From positions 62,001 through 126,000 of the forward strand of contig CAILCG010000024.1 of NCBI GenBank assembly GCA_903832665.1: 64,000 nucleotides of DNA, read 5' to 3'. The position numbers and the translations under genes are program-made. Source of the DNA: an uncultured Methanomicrobiales archaeon (GTDB lineage Archaea; Halobacteriota; Methanomicrobia; Methanomicrobiales; Methanospirillaceae). This document shows, in pieces, positions 4,745 to 41,958 of this stretch. The first letter of the stretch is position 1; every line of letters begins with the position of its first letter. The notes under the pieces were generated by a model. That model was not told the origin of the DNA and ran no database searches. It saw only the letters and a list, made by a program, of their open reading frames with translations.

Positions 4745-5608
4745 ATGAAATTATCTCATGTCCCTGTGTACCTGATCATCATCCTTTTTACAGCCCTGCT
4801 CCTGTGCGGTTGCACGGCCCCGGACCACCCGGCGCCGGCTGCGGTGACACCTGCTCCCGTTCCCACGACAACATTTCTCCCGCCGGCACCGGGAGAGATG
4901 AAGACCATCGGCATCATTGGGGGAGTCGGCTGGTCCTCATCCCTGAAATATTACCGTATCATGAACGAGAAGACCCAGAACGATCTTGGCGGGGACCATT
5001 CTGCCAAGATCCTGATGTATTCGATCGAATTCGGGGAGTCCTCCAAGCAGGAACGGCTTGCCGATGCGGGGAACTGGGATCCCCTGAATGCCACGATGCT
5101 CGATGCCGCCAGGCGGCTGAAGGCCGGCGGGGCTGATTTTATTGTCATTGCCTCAAATACCCTCAACTCCCGGGCCGATGACATCGAGGCGAAGGTCGGG
5201 ATCCCGGTTTTGCGCATCTATGATGTGACTGGCGCAAAGGTAAACACAAGCGGATTAAAAAAAGTGGCACTTCTCGGGACAAAGTTCACGATGGAGCAGT
5301 CATTCTACCGTGATGCACTGAAAAATAGGTATGGCGTCGATGTCGTGGCACCCAATGCGACCGAACGGGACTATATCAACACCGTCATCTTCGATCAACT
5401 CGTCAGGAATGACATCAGGAACGAGTCGCGGAGAGAGTATGTCCGGATCATCAACCAGCTCGCGGACGAGGAGGGCGCACAGGGAGTGATCCTGGGATGC
5501 ACCGAGATTCCGTTGCTCGTCCACCAGAGCGACGTGAAGATCCCGGTCTTCGACACGACACGAATCCATGCCGAAGCTGCGGTGGGTTACGCGCTGAACC
5601 GGACATAA
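4745..5608 (+). CDS. Aspartate/glutamate racemase-like lipoprotein
   Basis: This 287-residue protein starts at ATG 4745 behind GGAG; the open frame upstream runs through a repeat. Residues 1-20 form a signal peptide ending in a lipobox (LLLCGC), so it should be anchored outside the membrane. Residues 50-287 are an Asp/Glu racemase domain with GIIGGVGWSSSLKYY at the start. The second catalytic cysteine is present in GCTEIP (Cys252). The first is replaced by Ser137 in ASNTLNS, where the family usually has CNT. The Enterobacterial L-specific racemase also lacks one of the two Cys. Exported members are unusual. Its substrate is unknown. Confidence 0.85.
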   Translation: MKLSHVPVYLIIILFTALLLCGCTAPDHPAPAAVTPAPVPTTTFLPPAPGEMKTIGIIGGVGWSSSLKYYRIMNEKTQNDLGGDHSAKILMYSIEFGESSKQERLADAGNWDPLNATMLDAARRLKAGGADFIVIASNTLNSRADDIEAKVGIPVLRIYDVTGAKVNTSGLKKVALLGTKFTMEQSFYRDALKNRYGVDVVAPNATERDYINTVIFDQLVRNDIRNESRREYVRIINQLADEEGAQGVILGCTEIPLLVHQSDVKIPVFDTTRIHAEAAVGYALNRT

Positions 5609-5806
5609 CTTTTTTTACCGGCTTTTTCATACGGCATTCGCCCTCCTGCCTGCATCAGGTGCGGAATTTTTTTCGATCTTTGATACATCCAAAGGCCCCA
5701 TCTTCTCTCCTGCAGGGAAAAAAATGATGACAAAAAATTCCCGGCATGAAGCCGGAAATTTCTGGCCCGGTAAAAATCCGGCCCGCCCGGACCGGCGCTT
5801 CTTTCA

Positions 5807-5899
5807 TGCCCGCGGTTCCGGCAATCTACGACGGGTCCTGTACTTGATCCGGTTCCGGATCCGCTCATTCAGTACCAGCCCGGCCCCGCTCCACACGCT
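5807..5899. repeat. SDR e
   Basis: It contains GCGGTTCCGGCAATCTACGA, CGGGTCCTGTAC, CCGGTTCCGGATCCGCTCAT and CAGTACCAGCCCGGCCCCGC. It is in the long gap after the racemase-like gene, about 330 bases before the second 264-bp element. Confidence 0.7.
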
Positions 5900-6230
5900 C
5901 CGGTAAATGGGGGTCACCCCTGCTCAATGACAGGTGGGGTAGGGGAGGTTCATCTCCCTGAATGAGCGGCACGGCCTGGTCCACAACCCGGGTCCCAAAC
6001 GAGAATCGCACCGGAATTTTTCCGGAAGCTGTGGACGAGCCGTAACTATTTGTCAGCTCCAAAAAGTTACCGGTAAAAAGTCACCGGCAAAAGATTTCCC
6101 GGGTCGCTGAGATCCGGTCGCGCCGGATTTTTTCCTACTGGATCGTGTGCGGACAAAAAAAATATTTTCCGGATTGATCCGGCGTGGGTGTAAAACATCC
6201 TGGATCCAGAGCAGGGATCCCAGGGATGCC

Positions 6231-6494
6231 TCCGTCGGAGAACCCCTTTCCATGATACCTGGATGCCTCCGCGAGAATTCTGGTACAACGGAGCCCGCAA
6301 CGTTGCCCGTTGTACCTCTTTTCCCAAAAGTATCAGAATGGGAGGTCATAATTCGCAAAAACGCGGAAACGGGCCCGGAATTTACCACGGTTTGTCGACG
6401 GGAATAATTGCGGTCATATTTAGCCATGTTACGATGGCAAAAGTCAGGGCAGGATGATGTTTATGGGGTTGGGGGTTCCGGCTGGGGGTCGGAT
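6231..6494. repeat. 264-bp dispersed element, copy 2
   Basis: This copy has the longest hairpin of the three: GGTACAACGG and CCGTTGTACC pair over 10 bases around a 15-base loop. Differences from copy 1 are scattered substitutions. Downstream, 6495-6542 continues to match sequence after copy 3 (a TCATGGCATCTTTACCGGCG motif) and runs straight into SDR f, so element and SDR may be parts of one larger unit. Confidence 0.85.
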
Positions 6495-27720: not shown

Positions 27721-28848
27721 TCACCGGTTCCGACAGAATCGGCCACCTCGTATCTCCGGCCGGGATTGTTCGGATCGCCCCCTGGGAACACCATTCCGGC
27801 TACCCCCCGGAACAGCCTCCAGCCCATCTTTTCGGATGTCTGCCACCGGATTGTTGCTAAACAGGGTCATTTCAAGGCACAGAAATGATGCAAAATCGTG
27901 AATCAGGGTTTGAAATGACCGTTTTGTAAAATCAGTGTGTGGTTTTTCATCGTAAGATTGCCGGTCAGCCCCAATGAGGGAGTAATTGGGGGCTGAAATG
28001 GTCTCTGTTGACCTCATATCAGGCAACCCCCCATCTTGTTCTCCCCGGACCGGCCTCTCCGGCTCCGCTCTTTCTTCCAGTGCAGCTCCCCCTGTTTTCC
28101 TGGTCACCGCTTTTTTCCCGGCATTCTTGTTCGCACCTGCGACCGGCTTTTCTGTTCCGGTACTATTTTCCGGATCGACCGGGCCGGCCGGTACCTGATT
28201 TTTAATCACCGGTTTTTTACCGGGAGCATGTTTTGATTTTGTTTTCGGTATGCCGGCATCCAGGATCTTTTTGAGTTCATTGCTTCCCATCGCATCCGTT
28301 CCTGTGCCCGCCTTCTTTGCAGCATTCTTTTTCGCGAGCCAGCGGAGGATCGGGTCGCGGGGTGCAGCGGTACCGGGAGATGCCGGACTGGTCGCATTCG
28401 TTTCGTACGGCATCACGGTGCTGTCCCCACGGGGTGGTGGGCCGGTCACTACCGGTTTCATCAGGTTCAGCGGCATCCCGTAACGATCGATCTCCACGAG
28501 CCCGTCATCCCCGATACGGAAATGGCGCAGGGTACCGTACCGGGAGTACAGCCAGAGTTCGCAGGAGACCGGGCCATTGCGGGGAACAAGGCGGAGACCG
28601 GCGATAACTTCGGCAAACTCCCTTTCGATGGAGGCAATCCCGGCGGAGAGCTTCCGGGCAAGCCGGACCCGGACGATGACGAACAGGCCATTGCCGCTCA
28701 GGAGGAACTCGCCCAGGTTCAGGAGCGACGGGATGAAGACCATCACATGACCCCTCCAGAGTGCAAACGGGATCGCAAGAGCGATTCCCCGGGCCACGTT
28801 CGGTCCCGGCTTCATGCAATCCGTCCCGTGCGGGCACCCTCCGCACAT
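27721..28848 (-). CDS. CGGCPHGTDC-motif protein with disordered linker
   Basis: The 375-residue protein begins MCGGCPHGTDC, a tight three-Cys cluster. Residues 20-125 match the 760-1131 protein, with ELWLYSRYGT and LVEIDRYGMPL. A low-complexity region rich in Lys, Ala, Pro and Gly (about 150-290) follows. The tail (KRSFQTLIHDFASFLCLEMT onward) may be a short folded domain; the last 40 residues look non-native. It could be a membrane-associated or nucleic-acid-binding protein, since residues 25-60 are hydrophobic. The function is unknown. Confidence 0.65.
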   Translation of the reverse strand: MCGGCPHGTDCMKPGPNVARGIALAIPFALWRGHVMVFIPSLLNLGEFLLSGNGLFVIVRVRLARKLSAGIASIEREFAEVIAGLRLVPRNGPVSCELWLYSRYGTLRHFRIGDDGLVEIDRYGMPLNLMKPVVTGPPPRGDSTVMPYETNATSPASPGTAAPRDPILRWLAKKNAAKKAGTGTDAMGSNELKKILDAGIPKTKSKHAPGKKPVIKNQVPAGPVDPENSTGTEKPVAGANKNAGKKAVTRKTGGAALEERAEPERPVRGEQDGGLPDMRSTETISAPNYSLIGADRQSYDEKPHTDFTKRSFQTLIHDFASFLCLEMTLFSNNPVADIRKDGLEAVPGGSRNGVPRGRSEQSRPEIRGGRFCRNR

Positions 28849-29639
28849 CTCAGGTATTCTGAGGGCCAGGAATTTTCGTTGCCTGCAGTATGTCTGCTTT
28901 TCTTCAGGTGTGACATGGTTTTGTTCCCAATTTTCTGTTCCATAATCCCCTTGTTATCCGGTGGGAATTCCCGGCCCGTTCACCGGGGCCAGCCCGGGCA
29001 GACGGTCCCCTATCAGGGATACCTGCCTGAACGATCCCGCAGAGCTCATAAAAGAGCTTCCGGACCGGCGTTCATAGACGCGAGACCGCGATAATTCAGG
29101 GGGCCGGCACTCTCTTCTGGAGTTTGCCCGCCCGCAGTCGCGGCCTACGATAACCATTCCCACGATGACGGGGCGGTACTGCATGTACCGGATCACTGCT
29201 GCACCGAAACGCCACCTCATGGAACCGGGGCCGTGCAGTCTGACCCGTTTACCCGGGAGTGCACGGGGCCCGTCGTCCAGGCCGGCGCAGGTGTGCAGCG
29301 TTCCTGCGGCATTGTGATTATCCTCTGTTTTTTATAATTGATTAATAGGTTATTGGTTGCTGCGGATTTTTTCGCAGTTATTCTGGCCGGTATGCGGGAA
29401 TCGGGGGCTGGATTGGTGGTGGATGGGTATAACCCGGAGGTTGTATGAATGGAGCGCCGCTGTGGGAATTGGTGAAGAGTGCATTAATGGATTGGATTTT
29501 AGAAGAGGTTAGCTGCGTTCGATAGAATCCGGTTATTAATTCCAGCAATACCTGGAGAAATCCACGTTTGTGTTCTCGATTTATCCCGTACTAAAAAAAG
29601 CATTTCCCTCATGGAAATGAGTTATGAATGCCCTCCCGG
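28849..29639. other. Gap without a supported gene
   Basis: An open minus-strand frame at 28954-29220 is Arg-rich and resembles antisense of GC-rich DNA. From about 29320 the sequence turns AT-rich (TTTTTTATAATTGATTAATA at 29329). No repeat from the first 24 kb is present. Nothing else is supported. Confidence 0.4.
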
Positions 29640-29987
29640 TTATTCGATCGTTTCCATCCGGACTGCGGGTTCAAGGATCGTGATGAGCCGGGGGATGTCC
29701 AGGCTCACAGTATCCCAGACCTCGTCAAGGTCAACTTTTCCATAGGAATGAATGAGCATGTCCCGCATACGTGCCATTGCAGACCATTCGATCGATGTGA
29801 ACCGGTCGAGAGTCTCCGGGGAGAGCCGTTTTGAGACCTCACCGATCACTTCAAGGCAGCGGATGACCGCATACTGGCACTGGCGATCGGCTGCGAAAGA
29901 TTCCCGGGAATGATCCCGGGTAAATTCCCGTGCGTCCTTTGCCATGAGGAGAATATCAAGCAGGTACGCATCATCGTCACGCACCAT
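29640..29987 (-). CDS. HepT-type HEPN RNase toxin
   Basis: This intact HepT has 115 residues, with YAVIRCLEVIGEVSKRLSPE and WSAMARMRDMLIHSYGKVD. The RX4H catalytic motif is RDMLIH, with the following Tyr (SY) that is the AMPylation target in this family. It overlaps the upstream nucleotidyltransferase by 11 bases. Unlike the copy at 2784-3132, all expected residues are present. Confidence 0.92.
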   Translation of the reverse strand: MVRDDDAYLLDILLMAKDAREFTRDHSRESFAADRQCQYAVIRCLEVIGEVSKRLSPETLDRFTSIEWSAMARMRDMLIHSYGKVDLDEVWDTVSLDIPRLITILEPAVRMETIE

Positions 29988-30288
29988 ACACTTTCTCCAT
30001 GGATGAGAGGATACTTCTTTTGCGGATATAGTTCCGGCTCTGTTCCACAGCCTGCCGTGTCATGAGATCAATGCGACGGCCGAATAGCTCTTCGAGCTCC
30101 GCTTCCATCTTTGCGAGCTGGATGAGGGTGTGACGTGAACCGGCCGGGAAATCCACGATGATATCGATGTCGCTGTCGGGCCGGAATCTTCTGGTGGTGA
30201 CTGAACCAAATACCTGGAGTTCACTGATATTCCATGCCTTGCAGAACTCCCCGATCTGTTTTTGCCGGCTCCGGATAAGTGCGTTCAT
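29977..30288 (-). CDS. MNT-type nucleotidyltransferase antitoxin
   Basis: This 103-residue protein has VFGSVTTRRFRPDSDIDIIV, the GSX10DXD catalytic motif, and a third acidic position in FGRRIDLMTRQAV. It should AMPylate HepT. It is the first gene of the pair, starting at ATG 30288. The module sits at the left edge of the AT-rich island. Confidence 0.92.
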   Translation of the reverse strand: MNALIRSRQKQIGEFCKAWNISELQVFGSVTTRRFRPDSDIDIIVDFPAGSRHTLIQLAKMEAELEELFGRRIDLMTRQAVEQSRNYIRKRSILSSMEKVYGA

Positions 30289-30550: not shown

Positions 30551-30741
30551 ATCATTCAGATCGCGTGAGAGGCTGACTGCATAAAAAGAGAACGAATTTC
30601 TTCATCTGTCGTTTGTCTTTCATTCGATTTGATCGATGGATTATCCATTGAGGCACGGATCACCGCTGGGTAAATCACAGGATCTCGAACCAGCGCTCCG
30701 GTGCCACGCCGTACGATGCCAGCACAACAACCAGTCCTGCT

Positions 30742-30772
30742 GGTCCGACAGACGATGCGGTAAAAAAGAGCA
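30742..30772 (-). pseudogene. 31-bp inverted fragment of the ABC-2 permease
   Basis: On the minus strand this equals 16308-16338 exactly, coding for MLFFTASSVGP in both. Homology to the helicase begins just after, at about 30771. The identity ends sharply on both sides. Confidence 0.6.
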
Positions 30773-31766
30773 TAGAGTAGATCGTATCGGGAATACTAAT
30801 AGAATTACGGTTTATAATTTCTTCCCCGATGAGGATAGTGAGAGTCTCCTCAAACTCCTTGAGAAATTGCAGAATAAAATAAAGGATATTGCCACGATTG
30901 TCGGAAAGGAAAATGGCATTCTCAGCGGGGATGAAGAAGTAGATGCCAAAACCATTGGTGAGCGAATCAAGGAAATCCGGAGATTTGATGATACTATTAA
31001 ACTCGAAGACGAGGCAAAAAATCCGATTTTCAATATCACCGGTGAAGACAAAGAGGCAGTTATCCGGTTTAAATTAAGAAACCAGATCCGTGACTGGAAA
31101 CTTACGAAAAATGACTTCAGGGAATATTCGAACGTTCCTTACTCTGTTGTCAGAAATGGTAAGACCGGTATTTTCTCTCTCTATCGAATTTTTGATAAAA
31201 AAGATGGGCATAAATTCCAAGATGTCCTGCTTCGGTTTGATCCAATGAATAACTCGGTTTCTGAGATGAATCCGTTGGATCTCTCTATTCAACCGGCGGA
31301 TCCCGGTATAGCAAAAGCTGGTGTTGATCGTTCTGTTGATCTTGAAACCGGTCTGGAACAGATTCAATCGTCTTTTGAGGACAAATTCGCAACACTCAAA
31401 GGAGGATACTCCGATCTTGAGATGTATCCGAATTTCAAGATGTATAAAATCCAGGAAAAAATTGTACACCGGTTATCTACTCTCCAGAAACAAAAGTCGC
31501 TGAATGATGAACTGACTAAATATAAACGAGCGATTTCTGAATTAAAAGGATTATATGCAAATATTTTCTTGAGTCAGACGGATGCTGTTGAATTGGGTAA
31601 ACGCTTTGATGATAAGCCGGTCATGGCTATTGAAGTCGAGGAACTCATCAGGATTTTGCGGGAATTCAGGAAAGACGTGATCCAGAAAAATCCTGATTAT
31701 CAGCAATTCCTCAGGACGGAAAGGAATATTGATTATAAACAGATTTGCTGGGGGGCATTTGTATGA
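30773..31766 (+). pseudogene. C-terminal part of an SNF2-family helicase
   Basis: About 330 residues remain. They open at HRVDRIGN, which is the motif VI region of SNF2 helicases, and continue VYNFFPDEDSESLLKLLEKL and a C-terminal region of about 280 residues rich in Lys and Asp. All helicase motifs upstream are gone; the sequence before 30772 is unrelated. An ATG at 30636 would open a chimeric frame of 376 residues with a non-homologous start. The stop overlaps the methylase start as ATGA, keeping operon coupling. It may encode a C-terminal adaptor or simply be a remnant. Confidence 0.75.
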
Positions 31767-34700
31767 TGTCAATAAAACGAGACGATATCGCTTCGATTCG
31801 TAGTCTTGATAATATTGTAGCGATATTCTCGGAGAAAGGATTTACCGAATACAAAAAAGAGAGTGATACCGAAATCCGGATTAAAATTTCAGATGAGCCG
31901 ACATTTCTCTCGGTTTTTCAGATTAATGGGGTGGCTGATGTACCTCGACATCAAAAATATTTGGATGTCAAGACTGAATATCTGATATTGGTTACTCATG
32001 ACTTCGAAAATCTTATTTTTGTGAAAAAAGAATTCACCAAACTGGATACTGAGAGATTCCGGAAATTACGGATAAATAAATCAAAAATCACCAATACGAG
32101 TCTGAACAAGATCAATGGCCTTAATTTCAATGATGTTACCTTGTTCGACAATTTGTTTGATCGCAAGGAAGTTGTCAAGCAGTTCTATGATGAATTCATC
32201 AAATACCGTAAACTGCTTATTGACAATATCTCAGGTTTGGATACAGAAATTGAAAAAGAGCGGTATGCACAAATTCTCGTTGACCGCCTTATTTTCTTAT
32301 ATTTTATCCAGAAAAAGAATTTACTTGATGAAAATGAGAATTATCTCTCTCAAAAACTTAAAGAGAACAGAGGGGATTTTTTTAATAATTTCCTTTGTCT
32401 GCTATTTTTCAAGGGATTGTCTATTAAAGGATTCAAGGATCGCAAATTAGGTGATATTCCCTATCTGAACGGAGGTTTATTCCGGCAGAAAAAATGCGAA
32501 CAGGTAAAAATATCCATCCCGGATGAAGTCTTTGAAACAATACTTATCTTTTTTGACTCGTGGAACTGGTATGTGGATGAGCGGGCGGATTTTGGCGAAG
32601 AGAAAAGTATCAGCCCGGAGATACTTGGTCATATCTTTGAAAAGACTGTCAACCAGAAGGAAAGTGGAGCATATTATACTCCCGAACTTATCACGTCCTA
32701 TATCTCTGAAACCACTATTTATCCCGTATGCCTCAATAAAATGAACAGCCGGTTCAAACAAAACTATTCAACAATTAAAGAGCTCTTTGAAAAGGACTCC
32801 CCGGAAGAGATAGCATACCTTTACAACGAAGTCCTGAAAAAATTATCTGTTCTCGATAACGCCTGTGGTTCAGGAGCATTTTTGATCGCTGCTCAGGATG
32901 TCCTGATCGATATCTATTTCCAGACTATTTTCAGGTTGAAAAGTGATCCTGTCTTCATTGAAGAAATCAAGGAACATAACCGGAACCATGAACTTAAACT
33001 CGATCTGAACCTGGCATCAGCACAGGAATTCCACGACAATTCTCGGTGGAGTTATTACATCAAGAGGATGATTATCACCAATAATCTCTACGGTGTGGAC
33101 ATCGAAGAAGGAGCCGGGGAGATCGGGAAGTTACGATTATGGCTATCGATGATAGCTCATGTCCCGGAAAATATTTCTTTAGTCGAGCCTTTACCCAACA
33201 TCGAATATAACATCAGATGCGGTAACAGCCTTATCGGATATACTTCTGCAACCCAGATCGTGGATGAGAAAGATTTACCAAAAAAGCCAAAAAAGAAAAT
33301 CGTCTGGAACAAATTATCCGGCAACCAGATCAGCTTGGATACCTATCAGCCCGATTCGATCTTCCATCTCTATTACGATCGAAACCAGCTCATCCGGCAA
33401 TACAAAGATGCAGATGATTCAAAGAAAGCTGCCGATCTCAAGGATACGATTGATCAAAAAACCTACGAATACAATCAGGTCCTGAATAAGAAATTATTTG
33501 ATGAGATTGTTTTTGAAAAAGGGTTGGAGATTACTGAAGATTCCTTTGTTGATCTTAAACCGTTCCATTGGATTATGGAATTTTCAGATATTTTTGAGTG
33601 GGGGGGATTTGATATTATTGTCGGAAATCCTCCTTATTTACGGATCCAGACACTGAATAAATGTGCCGAAGAAGAAGTTGAATATTATAAAGATCAATAC
33701 CAAGTTGCGAAGAAGGGAAATTATGATATTTACGTAGTGTTTGTTGAAAGAAGCATTGATTTACTAAATAAAAATGGAATTTTAGGCTATATCCTCCCAC
33801 ATAAATTTTTCATTGCGAAGTACGGCGAACCACTTCGAAAATTTATTGCAGGGGGAAAACTCCTAAAAAAGATAGTTCACTTCGGACATCAGCAAGTTTT
33901 CGTTGGTGCAACAACGTATACCTGCCTTTTATTTTTAGGGAAATCTGTAACAGATGAATTTTGTTTTACAAAAATTGATAGTATCAAAATATGGAGTATA
34001 ACGAAGACCGCTGAATCTGCGATTCTAGGGTCTGAAGACATTTCAGAAAAAGAATGGTATTTCGTAATTAGGCCTGATGCAATAGTCTTTAAAAAATTAA
34101 TAGCAATGCCGAACAAACTCGGGAATATCATCAAACTGTTTGTGGGATTACAAACTAGCGCGGATCCAATTTATATTTTAAAGCCCCTGGCGGTAAATCC
34201 CCAATATTCAATAGTGAAATCTAAATTATTTGAAAATGAAGACATTCAAATCGAAACTTCAATTTTGCACCCACTTCTTAAAGGTGCAGAAATCATCAGA
34301 TACGAAAAACCAGGCTACGAAAATGTCTTGATTTTTCCTTATTACATTCAATCAAGTCAAGCCGTTCCTATCAATATTCATGAAATGCAATCGAAATATC
34401 CGTTTGCCGTTACTTATTTAGAAAAAAATAAGGATGCATTGATTGAACGACCAAAAACAAGTGAGAAGAATTGGTGGTTGTTTCCCTATCCTAAGAATTT
34501 GACACTTTTTGAAAGACCTAAAATTTTGTGTCAAGTATTGAGTACCCGGGGAAACTTTACTTTAGATGCAAAGGGTGAATTTTATTTTGTAGGTGGCGGT
34601 ACTGCGGGTGGCTATGCAATATATGATGAGAAAGAGGACGTAGACTATTTAAAATTTTTATTAGGAATATTAAATTCATCTCTGACGACCTTTTTTGTTT

Positions 34701-35020
34701 CAAAGGTTGGATCTGGATTTCAATCTGACTTTTACGCTTTCGGAAAAAGTTCTCTTGAAATTTTCCCCCTGCCAAAAATTAACTTGAAAAATATTGACGA
34801 TAAAAAACGATATTTTGAGATGATTTCTAGTGTTACATCGACGCTCAATTACCATAAACAATTGCAGGAAATTCAATCTGAAAATGAAAAGATCGAATTG
34901 ACCAAAAAAATTATTGAAATTGATAAATCCATAGACAAACTGGTATACGACCTTTATGGGTTGACGGTTGAGGAAATTGCAATCATAGAGGATGGACTCA
35001 GCCGAAAAGGAAAATGTTGA
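31763..35020 (+). CDS. Eco57I-type DNA adenine methylase / restriction-modification protein
   Basis: This 1085-residue protein starts at ATG 31763, overlapping the helicase stop. The N-terminal 280 residues are a helical/target-binding part. Motif I is DNACGSGAF (residues 365-373) and motif IV is NPPY (622-625), which identifies an N6-adenine methylase of the Eco57I/BREX PglX-like type. The C-terminal part (about 780-1085) resembles a target-recognition domain, with STRGNFTLDAKGEFYFVGGG. No PD-(D/E)XK nuclease motif is obvious. A host methylase without its own nuclease fits a defence system in which partners cut or degrade. Base composition is AT-rich. Confidence 0.92.
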   Translation: MMSIKRDDIASIRSLDNIVAIFSEKGFTEYKKESDTEIRIKISDEPTFLSVFQINGVADVPRHQKYLDVKTEYLILVTHDFENLIFVKKEFTKLDTERFRKLRINKSKITNTSLNKINGLNFNDVTLFDNLFDRKEVVKQFYDEFIKYRKLLIDNISGLDTEIEKERYAQILVDRLIFLYFIQKKNLLDENENYLSQKLKENRGDFFNNFLCLLFFKGLSIKGFKDRKLGDIPYLNGGLFRQKKCEQVKISIPDEVFETILIFFDSWNWYVDERADFGEEKSISPEILGHIFEKTVNQKESGAYYTPELITSYISETTIYPVCLNKMNSRFKQNYSTIKELFEKDSPEEIAYLYNEVLKKLSVLDNACGSGAFLIAAQDVLIDIYFQTIFRLKSDPVFIEEIKEHNRNHELKLDLNLASAQEFHDNSRWSYYIKRMIITNNLYGVDIEEGAGEIGKLRLWLSMIAHVPENISLVEPLPNIEYNIRCGNSLIGYTSATQIVDEKDLPKKPKKKIVWNKLSGNQISLDTYQPDSIFHLYYDRNQLIRQYKDADDSKKAADLKDTIDQKTYEYNQVLNKKLFDEIVFEKGLEITEDSFVDLKPFHWIMEFSDIFEWGGFDIIVGNPPYLRIQTLNKCAEEEVEYYKDQYQVAKKGNYDIYVVFVERSIDLLNKNGILGYILPHKFFIAKYGEPLRKFIAGGKLLKKIVHFGHQQVFVGATTYTCLLFLGKSVTDEFCFTKIDSIKIWSITKTAESAILGSEDISEKEWYFVIRPDAIVFKKLIAMPNKLGNIIKLFVGLQTSADPIYILKPLAVNPQYSIVKSKLFENEDIQIETSILHPLLKGAEIIRYEKPGYENVLIFPYYIQSSQAVPINIHEMQSKYPFAVTYLEKNKDALIERPKTSEKNWWLFPYPKNLTLFERPKILCQVLSTRGNFTLDAKGEFYFVGGGTAGGYAIYDEKEDVDYLKFLLGILNSSLTTFFVSKVGSGFQSDFYAFGKSSLEIFPLPKINLKNIDDKKRYFEMISSVTSTLNYHKQLQEIQSENEKIELTKKIIEIDKSIDKLVYDLYGLTVEEIAIIEDGLSRKGKC

Positions 35021-35033
35021 CGGTGAGTGAAAA

Positions 35034-35279
35034 ATGGCAAAAGGCAAAAAAATTTCAGCAAAGATAAAAGAACCCGAAAAACCCGTCTCTTTTAAAGATA
35101 TGAATTCCATGGCTCGGGAAGAATTTATCCGGTTAATATCAGCAGACGCTCTTCTGACTCCCGCATGGAAAGACGCAATAACTCCTCTGGTTTCGGAAAA
35201 AATCCCTGATGACCTTTCTCCCTTACAAATACTGATCGATGGTGTGCCTCATGTTGAGACTGAAACAACTCAAGGTTAA
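35034..35279 (+). CDS. Small acidic/basic partner protein
   Basis: This 81-residue protein starts at ATG 35034 behind GGTGAG, 13 bases after the methylase stop. It has a Lys-rich N-terminus (MAKGKKISAKIKEPEKP) and an acidic, helical remainder (EEFIRLISADALLTPAWKDA). Its last codons overlap the ATPase start by about 30 bases, so it is part of the operon. No domain is recognised. It could be a scaffold or antitoxin-like partner of the ATPase-HEPN protein. Confidence 0.7.
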   Translation: MAKGKKISAKIKEPEKPVSFKDMNSMAREEFIRLISADALLTPAWKDAITPLVSEKIPDDLSPLQILIDGVPHVETETTQG

Positions 35280-37647
35280 AAATTGTCGTGGAATCAGGGA
35301 CGGCCCAGATATCAATTTTGAAGCCGGAGGGCTGCTGTTATGTGGAGACAACGGCACGGGAAAAAGTTCGTATATTGATGCCATCGAGAAAAATCTCACC
35401 GGAAAGTGTTCATCCATCGAAACGGGAATACAGGGAATCTCATGGAATAAACACGGTGCCCATATCAAATGTAAGGATGAACCTGAAATTGAACTTACCC
35501 TCACCGATGGGAATAAAGAATTTATCATAGACAATGAAATGGAGCTGCAGAAATTTCCTAATAATATGATCACTTTTTTGGATTCTGCAAGGGTGCATCC
35601 GTTCATTTTACGGCGGAAAACTTTGCTCGATTTCATTGATGCAAAACCCGTAGATCGATACAAAGCCATTGAGGGCTTTTTGAAATTAGATCAGTTCAAG
35701 GAATTTGAAACGAAATTAAAAGAATTGGGAAACGATTGCCAGGAAAAATATTCTGGTGCCGTGACAAAGAAAGACGAAAACATACGGGCCCTTCGTTTAC
35801 GATTAAATTTATCCCCCCAATCTCCCGTCGATGTTGAAACCTGCATAAAACAGGCAAATCAGTTATTAAAACAGGTTGGCATATCCCCCCTAAAAACCCT
35901 TGAGGATATCCCCGAACGGTTGAAAAAAATTGAAGATAGTATTGCTCCCTTGAACCGGGATGAAAGTCTCCAGAAATGGACGAATCTCCTAACAACTCTT
36001 CAGGAAATTCAGAAGAATGATGTAGTTACCGAAGCAGGTCAGAATTATTCTGATAGCCGTCAGGAACTTTTAAAGAAACAAGATGTAATCAAAGGGCATT
36101 TCTACGCGGAGATTCTTGAAAAGGGCCTTGCATGGATACAGGAGGATGCATTAGATCGTTGTCCGCTCTGTAATAATACCATTAATGCTGATGAGGTATC
36201 TCGTTATGTTCAACAAAAAATTTCAGAAAACAACGAAATTACTGCTCTGACTAAAGATCAGAATCAACGATGGAAAACATTTTTGTCCATCCTTACAAAA
36301 AATCGGGATGTTCTCATAAAAATCAAAACACAGTCATTTGAGGGGCTGGAGTCGGAACTACTTGAAAAACTGGATCTCCTCATCAATTCCTACAACAATA
36401 TTTCCCAAAATCATCAGGAACTAACCGAACCAGCACTTATTATCAGCGATATAGCGGCGCTCAATCAAATCAAAACAGATGAAATTCTGCAGGAATTCAA
36501 TGAGAAAATCACAATAATCTGCAGCCAGTTTTCAGATAATGAACGGTATCGTCATCTTTTCAATACAAAAACTGCTTTGGATGCACTCGCGTTACATATG
36601 AAAAATATCGAGAGATGTGATGTGGAAATACAGCATTTTGAAAATTCATTCGGGCAGATGCAGGTCCTTGTAAAATATGCTGAACAAGCACGAAAAACTG
36701 CGGTTCAAAGTCTAATGGTTACCATCACCGACATCGCTGACTCATATTTCCAAAAAATACATCCCGCTGAGACTATAGGAAAACCTCAGTTGACTATTAC
36801 AGACCGCGGGGCCGGGAGTGTCATATTAACGAGCACCTTTTATGGTAAAGTGGAGGATCCCCGTGGCCATTACAGCGAAGGTCACATCGATACCCTCGGC
36901 CTCTGTCTGTTCCTTGCCATCTGCCGGGCACATCATCAGCAGGTTCCGGAATTTTCACTGTTAATTCTCGATGATGTGTTACACAGTGTTGATGGTAATC
37001 ACCGGAGAAGAACGGCAGAACTGATTTTTCAGGAATTCGGAGATCACCAGATAATAATCACTACCCATGATCGGTTGTGGTTTGAGATTTTGAAGACGGT
37101 CTCACGTTCTAACGGAGGCAATAAAAAATTCAGAGAATACCAGATTGCTGATTGGACCCTCGAAGAAGGCCCGATTTTTGGTGATCATTTATCCGAATAT
37201 GATTGGTTAATCTCTGCCGAAGGATTGAAGTCCCAGCCAGCTGATCGTGTCATTAAATCCGGGCGATTACTCGAAGAAATACTCCAGAATTTATGCGATT
37301 CTTTAACGATCAGTGTGCCCTTTAAGATTCGAGGGGATTATACTATCGATCCTCTCTGGTCTTCTTTTTACCAGAAAGCAAAAAAGCAAAATGAGTTTTA
37401 TGTAAAGGGAAAAAAATGTCTTGATTCTATCGACAGCTTACGTCAGATACGAAACTGGGTGGGGGCTCATTATAATGAATGGGCTAAAACACTGACAGCG
37501 AATGAATCAAAAGAATTTGCTAAATCTGTGATTGATCTTAGAAATTTTGTGTATTGTGAAAAGTGTAATCAATTCATCGTTCGGATCCCTCAACTTGACG
37601 GAATATGGTCGTGTAAGGGAGAACATTTACACTATAAAAAAGATTAG
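35251..37647 (+). CDS. SMC/Rad50-like ATPase with C-terminal HEPN RNase domain
   Basis: The 798-residue protein starts at ATG 35251 (MLRLKQLKVKNCRGI); ATG 35239 is also possible. Walker A GDNGTGKSS (residues 32-40), a coiled coil with a Rad50-like zinc-hook CPLC (304-307), the signature EGHIDTLGL near 547, Walker B LLILDD (570-575) and an H-loop TTHD follow. Residues about 640-765 look like a HEPN domain: RLLEEILQNLCDSL, then RNWVGAH (Arg734 to His740), matching RN-x4-H. A zinc pair CEKC (769-772) follows near the C-terminus. The likely role is sensing DNA and firing an RNase; this is an inference. Confidence 0.85.
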   Translation: MLRLKQLKVKNCRGIRDGPDINFEAGGLLLCGDNGTGKSSYIDAIEKNLTGKCSSIETGIQGISWNKHGAHIKCKDEPEIELTLTDGNKEFIIDNEMELQKFPNNMITFLDSARVHPFILRRKTLLDFIDAKPVDRYKAIEGFLKLDQFKEFETKLKELGNDCQEKYSGAVTKKDENIRALRLRLNLSPQSPVDVETCIKQANQLLKQVGISPLKTLEDIPERLKKIEDSIAPLNRDESLQKWTNLLTTLQEIQKNDVVTEAGQNYSDSRQELLKKQDVIKGHFYAEILEKGLAWIQEDALDRCPLCNNTINADEVSRYVQQKISENNEITALTKDQNQRWKTFLSILTKNRDVLIKIKTQSFEGLESELLEKLDLLINSYNNISQNHQELTEPALIISDIAALNQIKTDEILQEFNEKITIICSQFSDNERYRHLFNTKTALDALALHMKNIERCDVEIQHFENSFGQMQVLVKYAEQARKTAVQSLMVTITDIADSYFQKIHPAETIGKPQLTITDRGAGSVILTSTFYGKVEDPRGHYSEGHIDTLGLCLFLAICRAHHQQVPEFSLLILDDVLHSVDGNHRRRTAELIFQEFGDHQIIITTHDRLWFEILKTVSRSNGGNKKFREYQIADWTLEEGPIFGDHLSEYDWLISAEGLKSQPADRVIKSGRLLEEILQNLCDSLTISVPFKIRGDYTIDPLWSSFYQKAKKQNEFYVKGKKCLDSIDSLRQIRNWVGAHYNEWAKTLTANESKEFAKSVIDLRNFVYCEKCNQFIVRIPQLDGIWSCKGEHLHYKKD

Positions 37648-37654
37648 TATTCAC

Positions 37655-38701
37655 TCAATTTATTTGAATATCAGGTGCATTCAAACAAGAATCAATTTCT
37701 TTTTGTATTTTTGCTTTATCTGGGATATTTGCGTTCATGATTAATCTTCGTCCATCAATTCTGATTTCAAATAAATTCGGATTTAAGCCTTTATTATCGA
37801 TTTTATTTGGGCGTTGCCATTCCTGCAAGGAATCCGATAATTTTAGTAAAAATGCAAGCGGTGCTTTTTTCCGATCGATTCGTTTACCGTATGGTAAATA
37901 TTTCGGGCTTATATCATGAATATAGATCGCCGCACATGCAGGTATGATATCTTCTTCGAAATATTTCTGATTACAGTCAATATTCGTATATGGTTCGAGT
38001 ATTTTTTCAAATTTTCGTTCTGGATTATACTTCTGGTAAAAAAGATCAATACTGTTTAAACCGGTTAATGCGCTCATTGCTCTGTGACGTATTGATCCAG
38101 TTTCAATCATTTCTTCGTATTCGGATTGTATGGGGATATCAAGATCCCATCCATCCAAGCATTTCTGAATAAGTGGAAGCGATTTTTTGCTATTGCAAAG
38201 ATTTTCAATACCGGTCGGACGAATCTGGAAATGAAAGACAGGGGAGATATTTTTTATGTGCTTATCACGAATGCAGTTGTTCCTGTCTGAATATTTTTTT
38301 AACATTTCCTGGGCGATTTTCACTGGATAACCAATATCATGGAATAAACATGCAATCTTCCAAGTGAATGGCCTTATTTCAACTCCTTGTGGTAAAAGGA
38401 AAGATTCGCTAAGATATACCCCTAAAATATATGTCTGTAATGTATGCAATACGTGATCTCTGGATTCGATATCGATATTTCCGAGAACCGGTTCAAGCTT
38501 AGACAAATCATACAGATGATCTGCAATTTGGCTCTTCCCATGTTCAGCAAGGATATTTTTAATTATGTGAAGACCATCGTTCAGTCTGTACTCATAATTA
38601 TTATTGTAATCCAAGAATTTTTTGATTCGGGTTTCCTCATCCAGTCCATAATCCTGCAAATTGTCATGAATTTCCTGTAGAATAAACGAATTTATATCCA
38701 T
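37655..38701 (-). CDS. HD-domain phosphohydrolase
   Basis: This 348-residue protein has SRDHVLHTLQTYILGVY (first His), FTWKIACLFHDIGYPV (HD pair), AAIYIHDISPKY and AFLLKLSDSLQEWQRP (last Asp), the HD metal-binding order. A RBS GAGGAG lies before ATG 38701. HD proteins hydrolyse nucleotides or cyclic nucleotides. It faces the methylase/ATPase operon tail-to-tail with an 8-base gap. Its base composition matches the island. A defence role such as nucleotide depletion is a guess. Confidence 0.85.
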   Translation of the reverse strand: MDINSFILQEIHDNLQDYGLDEETRIKKFLDYNNNYEYRLNDGLHIIKNILAEHGKSQIADHLYDLSKLEPVLGNIDIESRDHVLHTLQTYILGVYLSESFLLPQGVEIRPFTWKIACLFHDIGYPVKIAQEMLKKYSDRNNCIRDKHIKNISPVFHFQIRPTGIENLCNSKKSLPLIQKCLDGWDLDIPIQSEYEEMIETGSIRHRAMSALTGLNSIDLFYQKYNPERKFEKILEPYTNIDCNQKYFEEDIIPACAAIYIHDISPKYLPYGKRIDRKKAPLAFLLKLSDSLQEWQRPNKIDNKGLNPNLFEIRIDGRRLIMNANIPDKAKIQKEIDSCLNAPDIQIN

Positions 38702-39256: not shown

Positions 39257-39550
39257 AAAAGATATAGGTAGGTTCGGGATAATCAGAATTCATCACTTTG
39301 AATTGTTCTATTCCAAAATAATTGCATGAGATTTATATTACAGAGCACAACGAAATCATCCGCTCTGTTTCGCCATTATCTGGTTTGGCGTTGCGTTTGA
39401 ACGATCGTTACCGGTCGGATAGTGCGAGCGAAGGTGAGCATAGGGACAATAGGAAAACGAAGCCCTGTGCCAGGAACCTCTGAACAAAAACGCACGATCC
39501 CAAAAAACCGGAATTGCACAAAAAAATTGCTGAAAAAAAATAAAAAAATA
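39257..39550. other. Gap between the island and rpl10e
   Basis: Sequence turns from AT-rich to GC-richer near 39360. No gene or SDR is seen. The right boundary of the island therefore lies here, next to the rpl10e terminator. Confidence 0.5.
39516..39550 (-). terminator. T-rich terminator of rpl10e
   Basis: On the minus strand several T-runs, up to eight T, lie immediately after the stop codon. This is the usual archaeal intrinsic terminator form. Confidence 0.6.
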
Positions 39551-40288
39551 TTACTTCTTGCCGCCCTTTGCAGGGGCTGCCTTGGCGTCCTTGCCGCCTT
39601 TTGCCGGTGCTGTTCCCTTTGCGGGCTCAGCTGCTTTGGCGTCCTTGCCGCCTTTTGCGTGGATTGCGCCGCTACCCTTGACTGCTTCCTTTGCGGGCTC
39701 AGCTGCTGCTTCTTCAGCAACTACCGGTGCTGCAACAACTTTCTCACCAACAAGCTTCGGTGCTGCAATGATCTTGCCGCTGACCTTGAGTTCGCTGACC
39801 TTCAGGTGGATGGGAGTCGGGAGCTTGTATCCCGCGTGGTGGAGTGCATCCTTGATCTTCTCAAGATAATTGGGAGTAGAGTAGACCGTCAGGACTTTCT
39901 GGCCTGCGCTGACGCGGGCTGCAGTCCCGACTGCTTTTCCAAAGGCAAGACGCATGCCTTCAGAGACACGGTCCGCACCGGCACCGGTAGCCTGCTTGTT
40001 TTCGCGAAGCACGTGGTGGGGAAAGACCCTGACCTTGAAGTGGAAGTTTGACCTGCCGACTTCCTTCATCAGGCGCCGGTTGGTCGTGATACGGGCTGCC
40101 TCGAGTGCGCTGTGCCGGATCTGGCATGACTCGTCAACAATGAGGTCAACTTCGGTTGGGAATTCCTGCGAGAGGTTTCCCATCTCGAACTGAACAATCT
40201 TGCTACCCGGAACACCGCCCATATATTTACGCCGTGTATAGGCCTTCTTGGAAATGTTCCTGTACATCTTTGCCGGTTTTCTAACCAT
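39551..40288 (-). CDS. rpl10e: Ribosomal protein L16/L10e with long C-terminal tail
   Basis: This 245-residue protein starts [20 protein letters not shown] and keeps the L10e pattern to about residue 172 (VSELKVSG); family members are about 165-175 residues. A 70-residue tail follows, rich in Ala, Lys and Gly, with two [13 protein letters not shown]-type repeats and a KKGGK end. The core binds 23S rRNA near the A site and peptidyl-transferase centre. The tail is unusual and probably disordered; a role in solvent or rRNA contacts is only a guess. It has its own leader after the ABC operon, with AGGAGT before the start. Confidence 0.95.
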
Positions 40289-40410
40289 CGCGTCCTACTC
40301 CTGTAAATTATTGCAAAAAGCGTGCATCATCATCCGTAATTAAGTCGGATGAAAATACCTGTGCGCTTCACAAACTGCTTGTATAAAATGGAGATGTGGC
40401 GTAATAAACC

Positions 40411-41172
40411 TTACTGGATTGAACATTTCTGGTTTATAAGATCCAGTACGTGCCGCCTGACCTGGGCAAATTCCGTGCTGGTCCGGTCCCGGGGGCGGGG
40501 AAGATTGATCGGCACTATGTGGCACAGGCATCCCGGCCGGGGCGTCAGCACAATAATCCGGTCCGAAAGGAAGACCGCCTCATCCACGCTGTGCGTGATG
40601 AAGATGATCGTCTTTTTTGTCTTCTCCCAGATCTCGAGCAGCTCGATCTGGAGCATGTTGCGGGTCTGGGCATCCAGCGCACCGAACGGCTCGTCCATCA
40701 GCAGGAGCACCGGATCCAGCGCCAGTGCCCGGGCCACCGCCACCCGCTGGCGCATCCCGCCGGATAATTCCGCGGGGTAATTTGCACGGAACTGGGTGAG
40801 ATTCACCAGTTCCAGGTAGCGCTCTGCAATGCGGTACCGCTCATCCTTTCCTATACCCTTCATCTCGAGACCGAAGACGACATTATCGATCACCGAGCGC
40901 CAGGGAAAGAGCGAGTACTCCTGGAAGACAAATCCCACCTTGGAACTCGGGCCCTTCATCTCTTCGCCATCAAGGAGAATGGTCCCGGACCGGGCGGTGT
41001 CGAGCCCCGCGATCAGGCGCAGCAGGGTGGTCTTGCCACAGCCGGAGGAGCCGAGAATACAGACAAATTCCTTGTCCTGCACTTCAATGTTCAGGTGATC
41101 GAGCACCGTCAGCTCCGAGCCATCGTCCCGCGTGAACGATTGCGACAGGTCATGAATCTGGAGTTTTCCCAT
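40411..41172 (-). CDS. ABC importer ATPase (NrtD/SsuB/TauB-type)
   Basis: This 253-residue ATPase has GSSGCGKTTLLRLIAG (Walker A), LSGGMRQRVAVARAL (signature) and LLLMDEPFGALD (Walker B). The MRQRVAVARALALDP and ITHSVDEAVFLSDRI segments place it with nitrate/sulfonate/taurine importer ATPases. It is the third gene after the binding protein and permease. Exact substrate is not resolved by sequence alone. Confidence 0.95.
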   Translation of the reverse strand: MGKLQIHDLSQSFTRDDGSELTVLDHLNIEVQDKEFVCILGSSGCGKTTLLRLIAGLDTARSGTILLDGEEMKGPSSKVGFVFQEYSLFPWRSVIDNVVFGLEMKGIGKDERYRIAERYLELVNLTQFRANYPAELSGGMRQRVAVARALALDPVLLLMDEPFGALDAQTRNMLQIELLEIWEKTKKTIIFITHSVDEAVFLSDRIIVLTPRPGCLCHIVPINLPRPRDRTSTEFAQVRRHVLDLINQKCSIQ

Positions 41173-41958
41173 TTATGCCACCTCCCCGGTCTGCCACTTC
41201 AGGAAGTACCGGTCAATAATGTACCGGAAGACCATATCGATCACGAGCCCGATGAGCCCCAGGAGGATCATGTACACGACAACGCAATCCATCCGGTGCA
41301 GGTTGTAGTAGAACCAGAGATTCTTGCCAAGCCCAGAATTCGAGACACCGAAAAGTTCCGCTGCAACCAGGCACATCCAGGCAACTCCGGTCGCGACCCG
41401 GATCCCCGACACCACGGACGGGAGAGCCGAGGGAAACGCGATGTACCGGATCAGGTCGCGGTTCTTCGTGCAGCCGAGCATCTTGCCCGCTTCGACAAAG
41501 ACCCGCGGCACGCTCCGGAAGCCGGTGTACGTATTTATGAGGATGGGAAAGACTGCCCCCACAAAGATGACGAACCCGGCCGAGATGGTGGTGAGCCCGA
41601 ACCAGATGATAGCAAACGGGATCCAGGCAAGCGGGGGGATCGGCCGCAGGAGTTCGATGAGGGGATCGAGGAAGGCATTGATCTTCCGGTTCCAACCGAT
41701 CGCGATCCCGACCGGAATGCCGACAACCAGCGCCAGCCCGAGGCCGATGGCAAAATGGATCATGCTCACCTGGAAATCCTGCAGGAGAATTCCCTTCTGG
41801 AGCAGTTCCAGAAACGCGGAGGTGACATCGAGCGGTGCGGGGAGCAGGAAACTGTTCTTCACGACCAGCGCCGCATAGCATTCCCAGAGCGCGAGTGCCA
41901 GCACGATCGCAAGAGCGCCGAACCACCTGTCCTTATGCTTCCGTAGTGGGTTTGCCAT
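41173..41958 (-). CDS. ABC importer permease (NrtB/SsuC/TauC-type)
   Basis: This 261-residue protein has six membrane segments and the BPD_transp_1 loop (residues about 160-190), with GVAWMCLVAAELFGVSNSGL typical of sulfonate/nitrate permeases. It abuts the ATPase start. Confidence 0.95.
   Translation of the reverse strand: MANPLRKHKDRWFGALAIVLALALWECYAALVVKNSFLLPAPLDVTSAFLELLQKGILLQDFQVSMIHFAIGLGLALVVGIPVGIAIGWNRKINAFLDPLIELLRPIPPLAWIPFAIIWFGLTTISAGFVIFVGAVFPILINTYTGFRSVPRVFVEAGKMLGCTKNRDLIRYIAFPSALPSVVSGIRVATGVAWMCLVAAELFGVSNSGLGKNLWFYYNLHRMDCVVVYMILLGLIGLVIDMVFRYIIDRYFLKWQTGEVA

Follow-up and report, generated by a model that had tools for sequence, protein, structure and literature searches.

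The four frames that lie head to tail and in the same direction in the window (64,000 nucleotides from the 2.88-Mb genome of an uncultured Methanomicrobiales archaeon, on a contig of 255 kb) fall into two groups: module A (30774-35020), a broken restriction system, and module B (35034-37647), a separate, self-contained and mobile two-gene cassette that encodes an 81-aa protein and an 802-aa ATPase. A decayed RM-like module A combined with a mobile RloC/PrrC-like cassette is the best explanation of the locus, and one that we hold with moderate confidence. The analysis replaces the false four-gene system of the original prediction by a cassette that archaea and bacteria share and that recurs in one BREX slot, flanked by pglX and pglZ. 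As many copies are carried on plasmids of culturable Alphaproteobacteria, the family is directly testable, and if the cassette is a restriction guard, it would represent a new family beside the RNase backups PrrC, RloC and PARIS.

The AT-rich block at 30-39 kb that contains the four frames is an island, with a GC content of 34-45% compared with 50-60% in the flanks, as shown by the GC profile of the window. In a congeneric species (L134), the matches to window positions 28142-29380 and 39538-41787 are only 556 bp apart, and the window therefore carries about 10 kb of extra DNA. The island consists of a HepT/MntA-like pair (29640-30288, - strand; Pfam, PADLOC and NCBIfam scans), the SNF2 remnant, the methylase, the 81-aa ORF and the 802-aa ORF, and a convergent gene for a 348-aa HD-domain protein (37655-38701, - strand; Pfam HD 3.5e-4, just under the cut-off), and a Pfam match to ribosomal protein L16/L10e was found at 39551-40288. 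The HD-domain gene is separated from the stop codon of the ATPase by 7 nt and had no relatives in the plasmid search; it is an island neighbour and at most a candidate member of the cassette. The defence setting originally proposed for the locus is supported, as are the head-to-tail order and the AT-richness of the block; the overlaps that had been claimed between the frames hold only in part, because the methylase and the 81-aa gene are separated by a 13-nt gap. The 81-aa ORF (35034-35279) overlaps the start of the 802-aa ORF (35239-37647).

The first frame (30774-31766, + strand) is the C-terminal quarter of an HKD-SNF2 helicase-nuclease, as identified by PADLOC and by alignment to a haloarchaeal protein from Halorussus. 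The PADLOC matches are C3a139 'HKD+Snf2' (2.9e-15) and BrxHII (2e-5). The Halorussus reference helicase, of 1259 aa, contains PLDc_2 (the HKD nuclease), SNF2 and Helicase_C domains, and the remnant aligns only with its residues 856-1254, convincingly only from about the junction onward; owing to this limited alignment, the label 'SNF2 remnant' was well chosen. The remnant lacks the PLD nuclease, the SNF2 motor and almost the whole of Helicase_C, and to judge from the sequence it cannot act as a helicase or as a nuclease. The missing N-terminus was searched for and is absent from the window, and the remnant has no second copy elsewhere in its own genome.

The start proposed for the operon coincides with the breakpoint to the nucleotide, at 30773. 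A BLAST search of the own genome, together with scans of the 255-kb contig (C24) for exact matches, resolved the DNA at this left breakpoint (30577-30773) into a patchwork filler made of four exact copies of sequences from the same contig, of 85 bp (source C24:35034-35118, - strand), 31 bp (C24:28843-28873, - strand), 54 bp (C24:22772-22825, + strand) and 32 bp (C24:78307-78338, - strand), which are joined with overlaps of 0, 3 and 2 bp. As only 40 exact matches of at least 24 bp are listed in the whole contig, with both copies counted, the four-piece tiling is no accident. The upstream ATG of the remnant frame (30636) falls within this foreign DNA. The filler reads as templated DNA that was put in when the helicase was cut, and an assembly or amplification error may also have produced it.

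The second frame (31763-35020, + strand) encodes an intact Eco57I-family N6-adenine methylase of about 1085 aa, as predicted, with Pfam matches to Eco57I (5.7e-43) and to the TaqI_C specificity domain (5.7e-7), a PADLOC match to REase_MTase_IIG (3.8e-122) and the catalytic motifs NACGSGAF and NPPY in frame. Its first approximately 410 residues have no Pfam match, and no nuclease domain was detected in the Pfam and PADLOC scans, in agreement with the earlier remark that no nuclease motif is visible in it. A relative of the methylase accompanies the HKD-SNF2 helicase on haloarchaeal plasmids: of the 15 records listed for the helicase, 12 recur in the list of 20 for the methylase, and in the four loci viewed the two genes are no more than a few kilobases apart, without the Rad50-like cassette. 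This co-occurrence identifies the first two frames as an RM-like pair, the helicase-nuclease of which was destroyed. Module A is thus a decayed HKD-SNF2 helicase-nuclease plus Eco57I methylase system, and the methylase of the window is now probably an orphan.

The larger protein of module B (802 aa; 35239-37647, + strand) combines a RecF/Rad50-like ABC ATPase with a zinc hook, a HEPN-like domain and a zinc ribbon, as indicated by Pfam (SMC_N, 1.9e-11; AAA_23, 5.5e-9) and by an alignment with 24 chosen homologues that are 19-61% identical to it over nearly the full length. In this alignment the ABC motifs (Walker A, signature SE, Walker B and H-loop) are invariant, and in the Walker A motif GDNGTGKS (aa 36-43; 35344-35367, + strand) this holds in 24/24 for G36, N38, G39, G41, K42 and S43. 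Equally invariant are C308, P309 and C311 of the zinc hook CPLC (aa 308-311; 36160-36171, + strand), which is flanked by the two halves of the head and which the Rad50_zn_hook model matches weakly in eight members, and the three cysteines of the C-terminal zinc ribbon, C773xxC776 ... C792 (37555-37626, + strand). Pfam found no DNase domain in the window ATPase. No match to Pfam AAA_13 (PF13166), which we take to be the family that holds RloC and PrrC, was obtained for the window ATPase at E<=1, and nine of the 24 homologues match it weakly; the own genome has no AAA_13 protein at E<=1e-20, with a positive E. coli control. Among the PADLOC candidate systems, the window ATPase gave a partial match to PDC-S06 (E 3.5e-7), and HEC-01A was matched weakly; no full-length HEC or PDC match was found for the window protein, and no HEC or PDC match at 1e-12 in seven members scanned singly. 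No model of PADLOC, Pfam or NCBIfam covers the whole ATPase or its pairing with the small protein.

The C-terminal domain of the ATPase was modelled with AlphaFold2 from six sequences (pLDDT 80, pTM 0.81); a full-length model from two sequences reached a pLDDT of 48 and was set aside. The model and the alignment place a HEPN-like helical domain at 37228-37542 (+ strand), with E679 in helix 2 and with R738-N739-x4-H744 where helix 3 ends. These helices and residue positions agree with the description of HEPN as a four-helix fold with an acidic residue in helix 2 and an Rx4-6H motif at the end of helix 3 (PMC3710099). The best TM-scores among the PDB matches listed are 0.57 for 1wwp and 0.53 for 2q00, both target-normalised and with non-significant Foldseek E values of 3.6 and 5.0, respectively, and both entries are listed as HEPN structures in PMC3710099. 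The modelled bundle is likely to be a HEPN domain, and the prediction that the last gene encodes an ATPase-HEPN protein and a probable RNase effector is consistent with this model and with the RecF/SMC-type head. E679 and H744 are conserved in 24/24, N739 in 23/24 and R738 in 9/24, so that the canonical HEPN arginine, which the window protein retains, has given way to other residues in 15 of the 24 members, and because of this replacement some or all members could be non-catalytic. A HEPN family that lacks the arginine and keeps the histidine exists, and its structure is 2q00 (PMC3710099). From the residues conserved, catalysis appears probable in the group of the window protein and uncertain in relatives outside it.

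The 81-aa partner (35034-35279, + strand) has homologues in the three nearest loci and no significant match in Pfam, PADLOC or NCBIfam. In 21 of 22 loci a small ORF on the same strand lies, within fixed limits, directly 5' of the ATPase gene and frequently runs into the beginning of that gene, and in the 22nd (L011) the upstream ORF is of 114 aa; by comparison, a small upstream ORF is found at 17% of the other large genes in these loci. Profile comparison of the small proteins gave probabilities of 84-97% for some pairs and low values for others, and between the group of the window and other groups a likeness was not detectable in any pair. Since profile likeness is clear in some groups and undetectable in others, the pairing with a small ORF is firmer than the homology, which between distant groups would be moderate at best.

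Homologues of the ATPase were found in four of the 232 genomes of the class and, by the alignment-based search, in 25 of the 393 genomes of the phylum; this search performed far better than a contig scan with four ATPases, which returned one known close relative and one doubtful P-loop match. A further 36 plasmid records, eight of them conjugative, carry the ATPase and come from Alphaproteobacteria, Bacteroidota and haloarchaea among others; the Rhizobium etli plasmid pRetNXC12e (L140) is an alphaproteobacterial example. The cassette is known from methanogens, other archaea, Alphaproteobacteria and Bacteroidota, and one relative from the window's own order is a MAG of Methanocalculus. This relative and the L16/L10e match near the island point to an archaeal origin of the window. 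The phage genome collection gave no match to the ATPase and the viral contigs searched gave none to the small protein; one contig of the viral collection (L076) carries a full copy of the cassette.

The neighbours of these copies are often restriction and defence genes. In four BREX loci (L011, L058, L060 and L065; L058/L046 is the BREX-5 locus of Halorhabdus) the cassette lies between PglX and PglZ, and the window cassette lies 3' of the methylase as the BREX cassettes lie 3' of PglX. Elsewhere it adjoins DUF499/Hma genes (L063 and, from Halobacterium, L135), GmrSD/DUF262 genes (L012 and L137), a type I RM system (L010), a Tiamat-like TmtA with a methylase (L055), a DndH-like gene (L059), a DrmD/HmaA-like helicase (L062), a HEAT-repeat protein with an N6/N4 methylase (L061, with similar frames at L067) and a restriction endonuclease (L139), and the plasmid copies L044, L047 and L050 are without restriction neighbours. 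The ATPase and the small ORF do recur together, more often than chance would give, but not as a unit with the helicase and the methylase: their homologues occur without these two genes in BREX, DUF499/Hma, GmrSD and type I RM settings and alone on plasmids, which by the reasoning of the prediction itself speaks against a four-gene system.

By analogy, the cassette is most likely a backup effector of the RloC/PrrC kind, a reading that draws on the domain make-up, the invariant motifs, the small-ORF pairing and the recurrence in or beside restriction systems. The ATPase head, with its coiled coil and hook, would be an ATP-gated sensor on DNA that responds to the state of the DNA or to an assault on the adjoining restriction system. 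In the resting state the head in complex with the small protein would keep the HEPN domain inactive. A change in the head, on infection or when the neighbouring restriction or BREX system is inactivated, would free the HEPN RNase, which would then cut cellular RNA (tRNA in the case of RloC and PrrC), so that virus multiplication would be halted and the cell sacrificed. The small protein may be a silencer or an adaptor to the partner system. We further propose, tentatively, that the pair is a widespread immune module which guards restriction and BREX systems of archaea and bacteria in the manner of PARIS and PrrC: it adjoins the methylase gene and would fire its RNase once the methylase or the restriction complex is disabled.

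The layout of the two genes, with a small gene upstream of and overlapping a larger one, is also typical of toxin-antitoxin systems, and together with the 36 plasmid records, eight of them conjugative, it would suit an addiction module in which the small protein is the antitoxin and the ATPase-HEPN protein the toxin, serving plasmid maintenance first and defence second. We consider this unlikely, as the usual toxins are simpler than an ATPase of 800 aa whose zinc hook is invariant, the small protein is strongly variable, and the repeated embedding between pglX and pglZ in BREX operons points to a link with restriction. More doubtful still is an SMC- or Lamassu-like machine that acts on DNA against plasmids or phages, with a HEPN-like domain that only binds nucleic acid. 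Among the PADLOC models, mad3 and LmuB (up to 1.7e-33) come nearest, with LmuB as the top hit for head and coiled coil in each of the seven relatives that were scanned singly, and the frequent loss of the HEPN arginine would agree with such a role; however, E679 and H744 are strictly kept, the ATPase has no DNase domain detectable by Pfam, and no LmuA or LmuC match was found among the window neighbours scanned with PADLOC.

The original proposal, that all four genes form one undescribed defence system in which the methylase marks self, the RNase kills and the helicase assists, is suggested by the head-to-tail order, the tight spacing and the common AT-richness, but has become improbable. What is left of the helicase has no catalytic domains, the idea of the methylase as a self-marker for the RNase found no support (a HEPN RNase would presumably not need a DNA mark), and no second locus with helicase, methylase and cassette together was found among the loci examined, nor a locus with a full helicase and the cassette in the 232 class genomes. 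A single conserved four-gene operon was rejected on account of the separate occurrence of the two pairs. Least probable is a DNA-repair ATPase of the RecF/Rad50 type without a defence role, for although RecF TIGR00611 matches 24/24 members weakly and several relatives carry the automatic annotation or GO terms 'double-strand break repair', the window protein is far under the cut-offs (55 of 172 bits for RecF and 38 of 700 bits for Rad50), the distribution is patchy (four of 232 class genomes), and the cassette lies inside defence operons and on plasmids.

With respect to known systems, module A is closest to systems of an HKD-SNF2 helicase and an N6-methylase (Type-2 BR, PMC12839542; PADLOC C3a139); Type-2 BR comprises a DUF499 ATPase, DUF3780, an N6-methylase and an HKD-SNF2 protein. 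Module A matches the C-terminal part of the helicase and the methylase partner, whereas genes for DUF499 and DUF3780 were not found in the region scans at the window. The absence of DrmA, DrmB, DrmC, PglZ and BrxC was correctly recognized at the outset: no match to the BREX proteins BrxC and PglZ or to DrmA, DrmB and DrmC of class 1 DISARM was found at the window, PglX and DrmMI appearing only as secondary matches of the methylase. The BREX core of brxC, pglX and pglZ does surround four cassette relatives. For module B, the fusion of the effector domain to the ATPase distinguishes the cassette from Lamassu. PARIS (AriA/AriB) and other OLD-ABC modules share with it the organization as a two-gene ABC-ATPase unit within BREX/BR loci and have been proposed as a backup against anti-restriction (PMC12839542); the cassette ATPase is instead RecF/Rad50-like with a zinc hook, and its HEPN-like effector lies in cis, in contrast to the TOPRIM effector of PARIS, which acts in trans.

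Fusions of HEPN RNases with ABC ATPases, some of them tied to R-M loci, have already been described (PMC3710099). Among them, the APECO1_4465 and ERFG_01251 types, compared here by description only, also join an ABC ATPase to a C-terminal HEPN domain in mobile islands, and the sections of PMC3710099 covered mention for them neither a small partner nor an insertion between pglX and pglZ. RloC, with 804 aa, has about the size of the window ATPase and shows the same order of parts, from the ABC head through a coiled coil with a CxxC zinc hook to a C-terminal HEPN RNase (PMC2610378, PMC3710099), and mutations in its hook lead to higher RNase activity (PMC2610378). In some cases ATPases of the RloC/PrrC type lie in restriction loci (PMC2610378, PMC3710099), and PrrC is silenced by a restriction enzyme and freed by an anti-restriction peptide (PMC3710099). 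The triad R-x3-E...H of RloC (PMC2610378) is not kept in the cassette, where E679 and H744 are invariant and no arginine is; the cassette ATPase, unlike RloC, has a zinc ribbon after the HEPN domain, and it has a constant small partner ORF, none being found for RloC in the portions of PMC2610378 and PMC3710099 covered. In the literature covered, and with an earlier mention elsewhere possible, no named system was seen to have the constant partner, the ribbon or the pglX-pglZ slot. ABC-HEPN fusions are a known kind, and the partner gene, the zinc ribbon and the slot between pglX and pglZ are the features that distinguish the cassette from those described in the sources compared.

By comparison with two congener loci, L134 and L133, the region at around 29.4–39.5 kb of the window is a variable slot. 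The two flanks of the slot are separated by 556 bp in L134, and in L133 the 39.5 kb flank is found near sequence that matches the window at 22 kb. At the breakpoint on the left of the truncated HKD-SNF2 helicase remnant, positions 30577–30773 consist of four exact-copy fragments of 85, 31, 54 and 32 bp, the sources of which were located by BLAST against the own genome and exact-match scans of the contig to the same contig, 14–70 kb distant. The fragments are joined with overlaps of 0–3 bp, and the patchwork resembles a product of templated-insertion repair.

Towards the right end of the slot, the gene for a 348-aa HD-domain protein (37655–38701, − strand; Pfam HD match slightly under the cut-off) ends 7 nt from the stop of the ATPase-HEPN gene; the plasmid search found no plasmid relatives of this protein. 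A full copy of the ATPase is present on the viral-collection contig IMGVR_UViG_2891483275_000003, which is possibly a prophage region. In the BREX locus L011, a dGTPase-like HD protein (4951–6381, − strand) is encoded with the cassette on one side and PglZ on the other. The helicase breakpoint is neighboured by a HepT/MntA-like HEPN–nucleotidyltransferase pair (29640–30288, − strand), the nucleotidyltransferase of which matches PADLOC PDC-S09.
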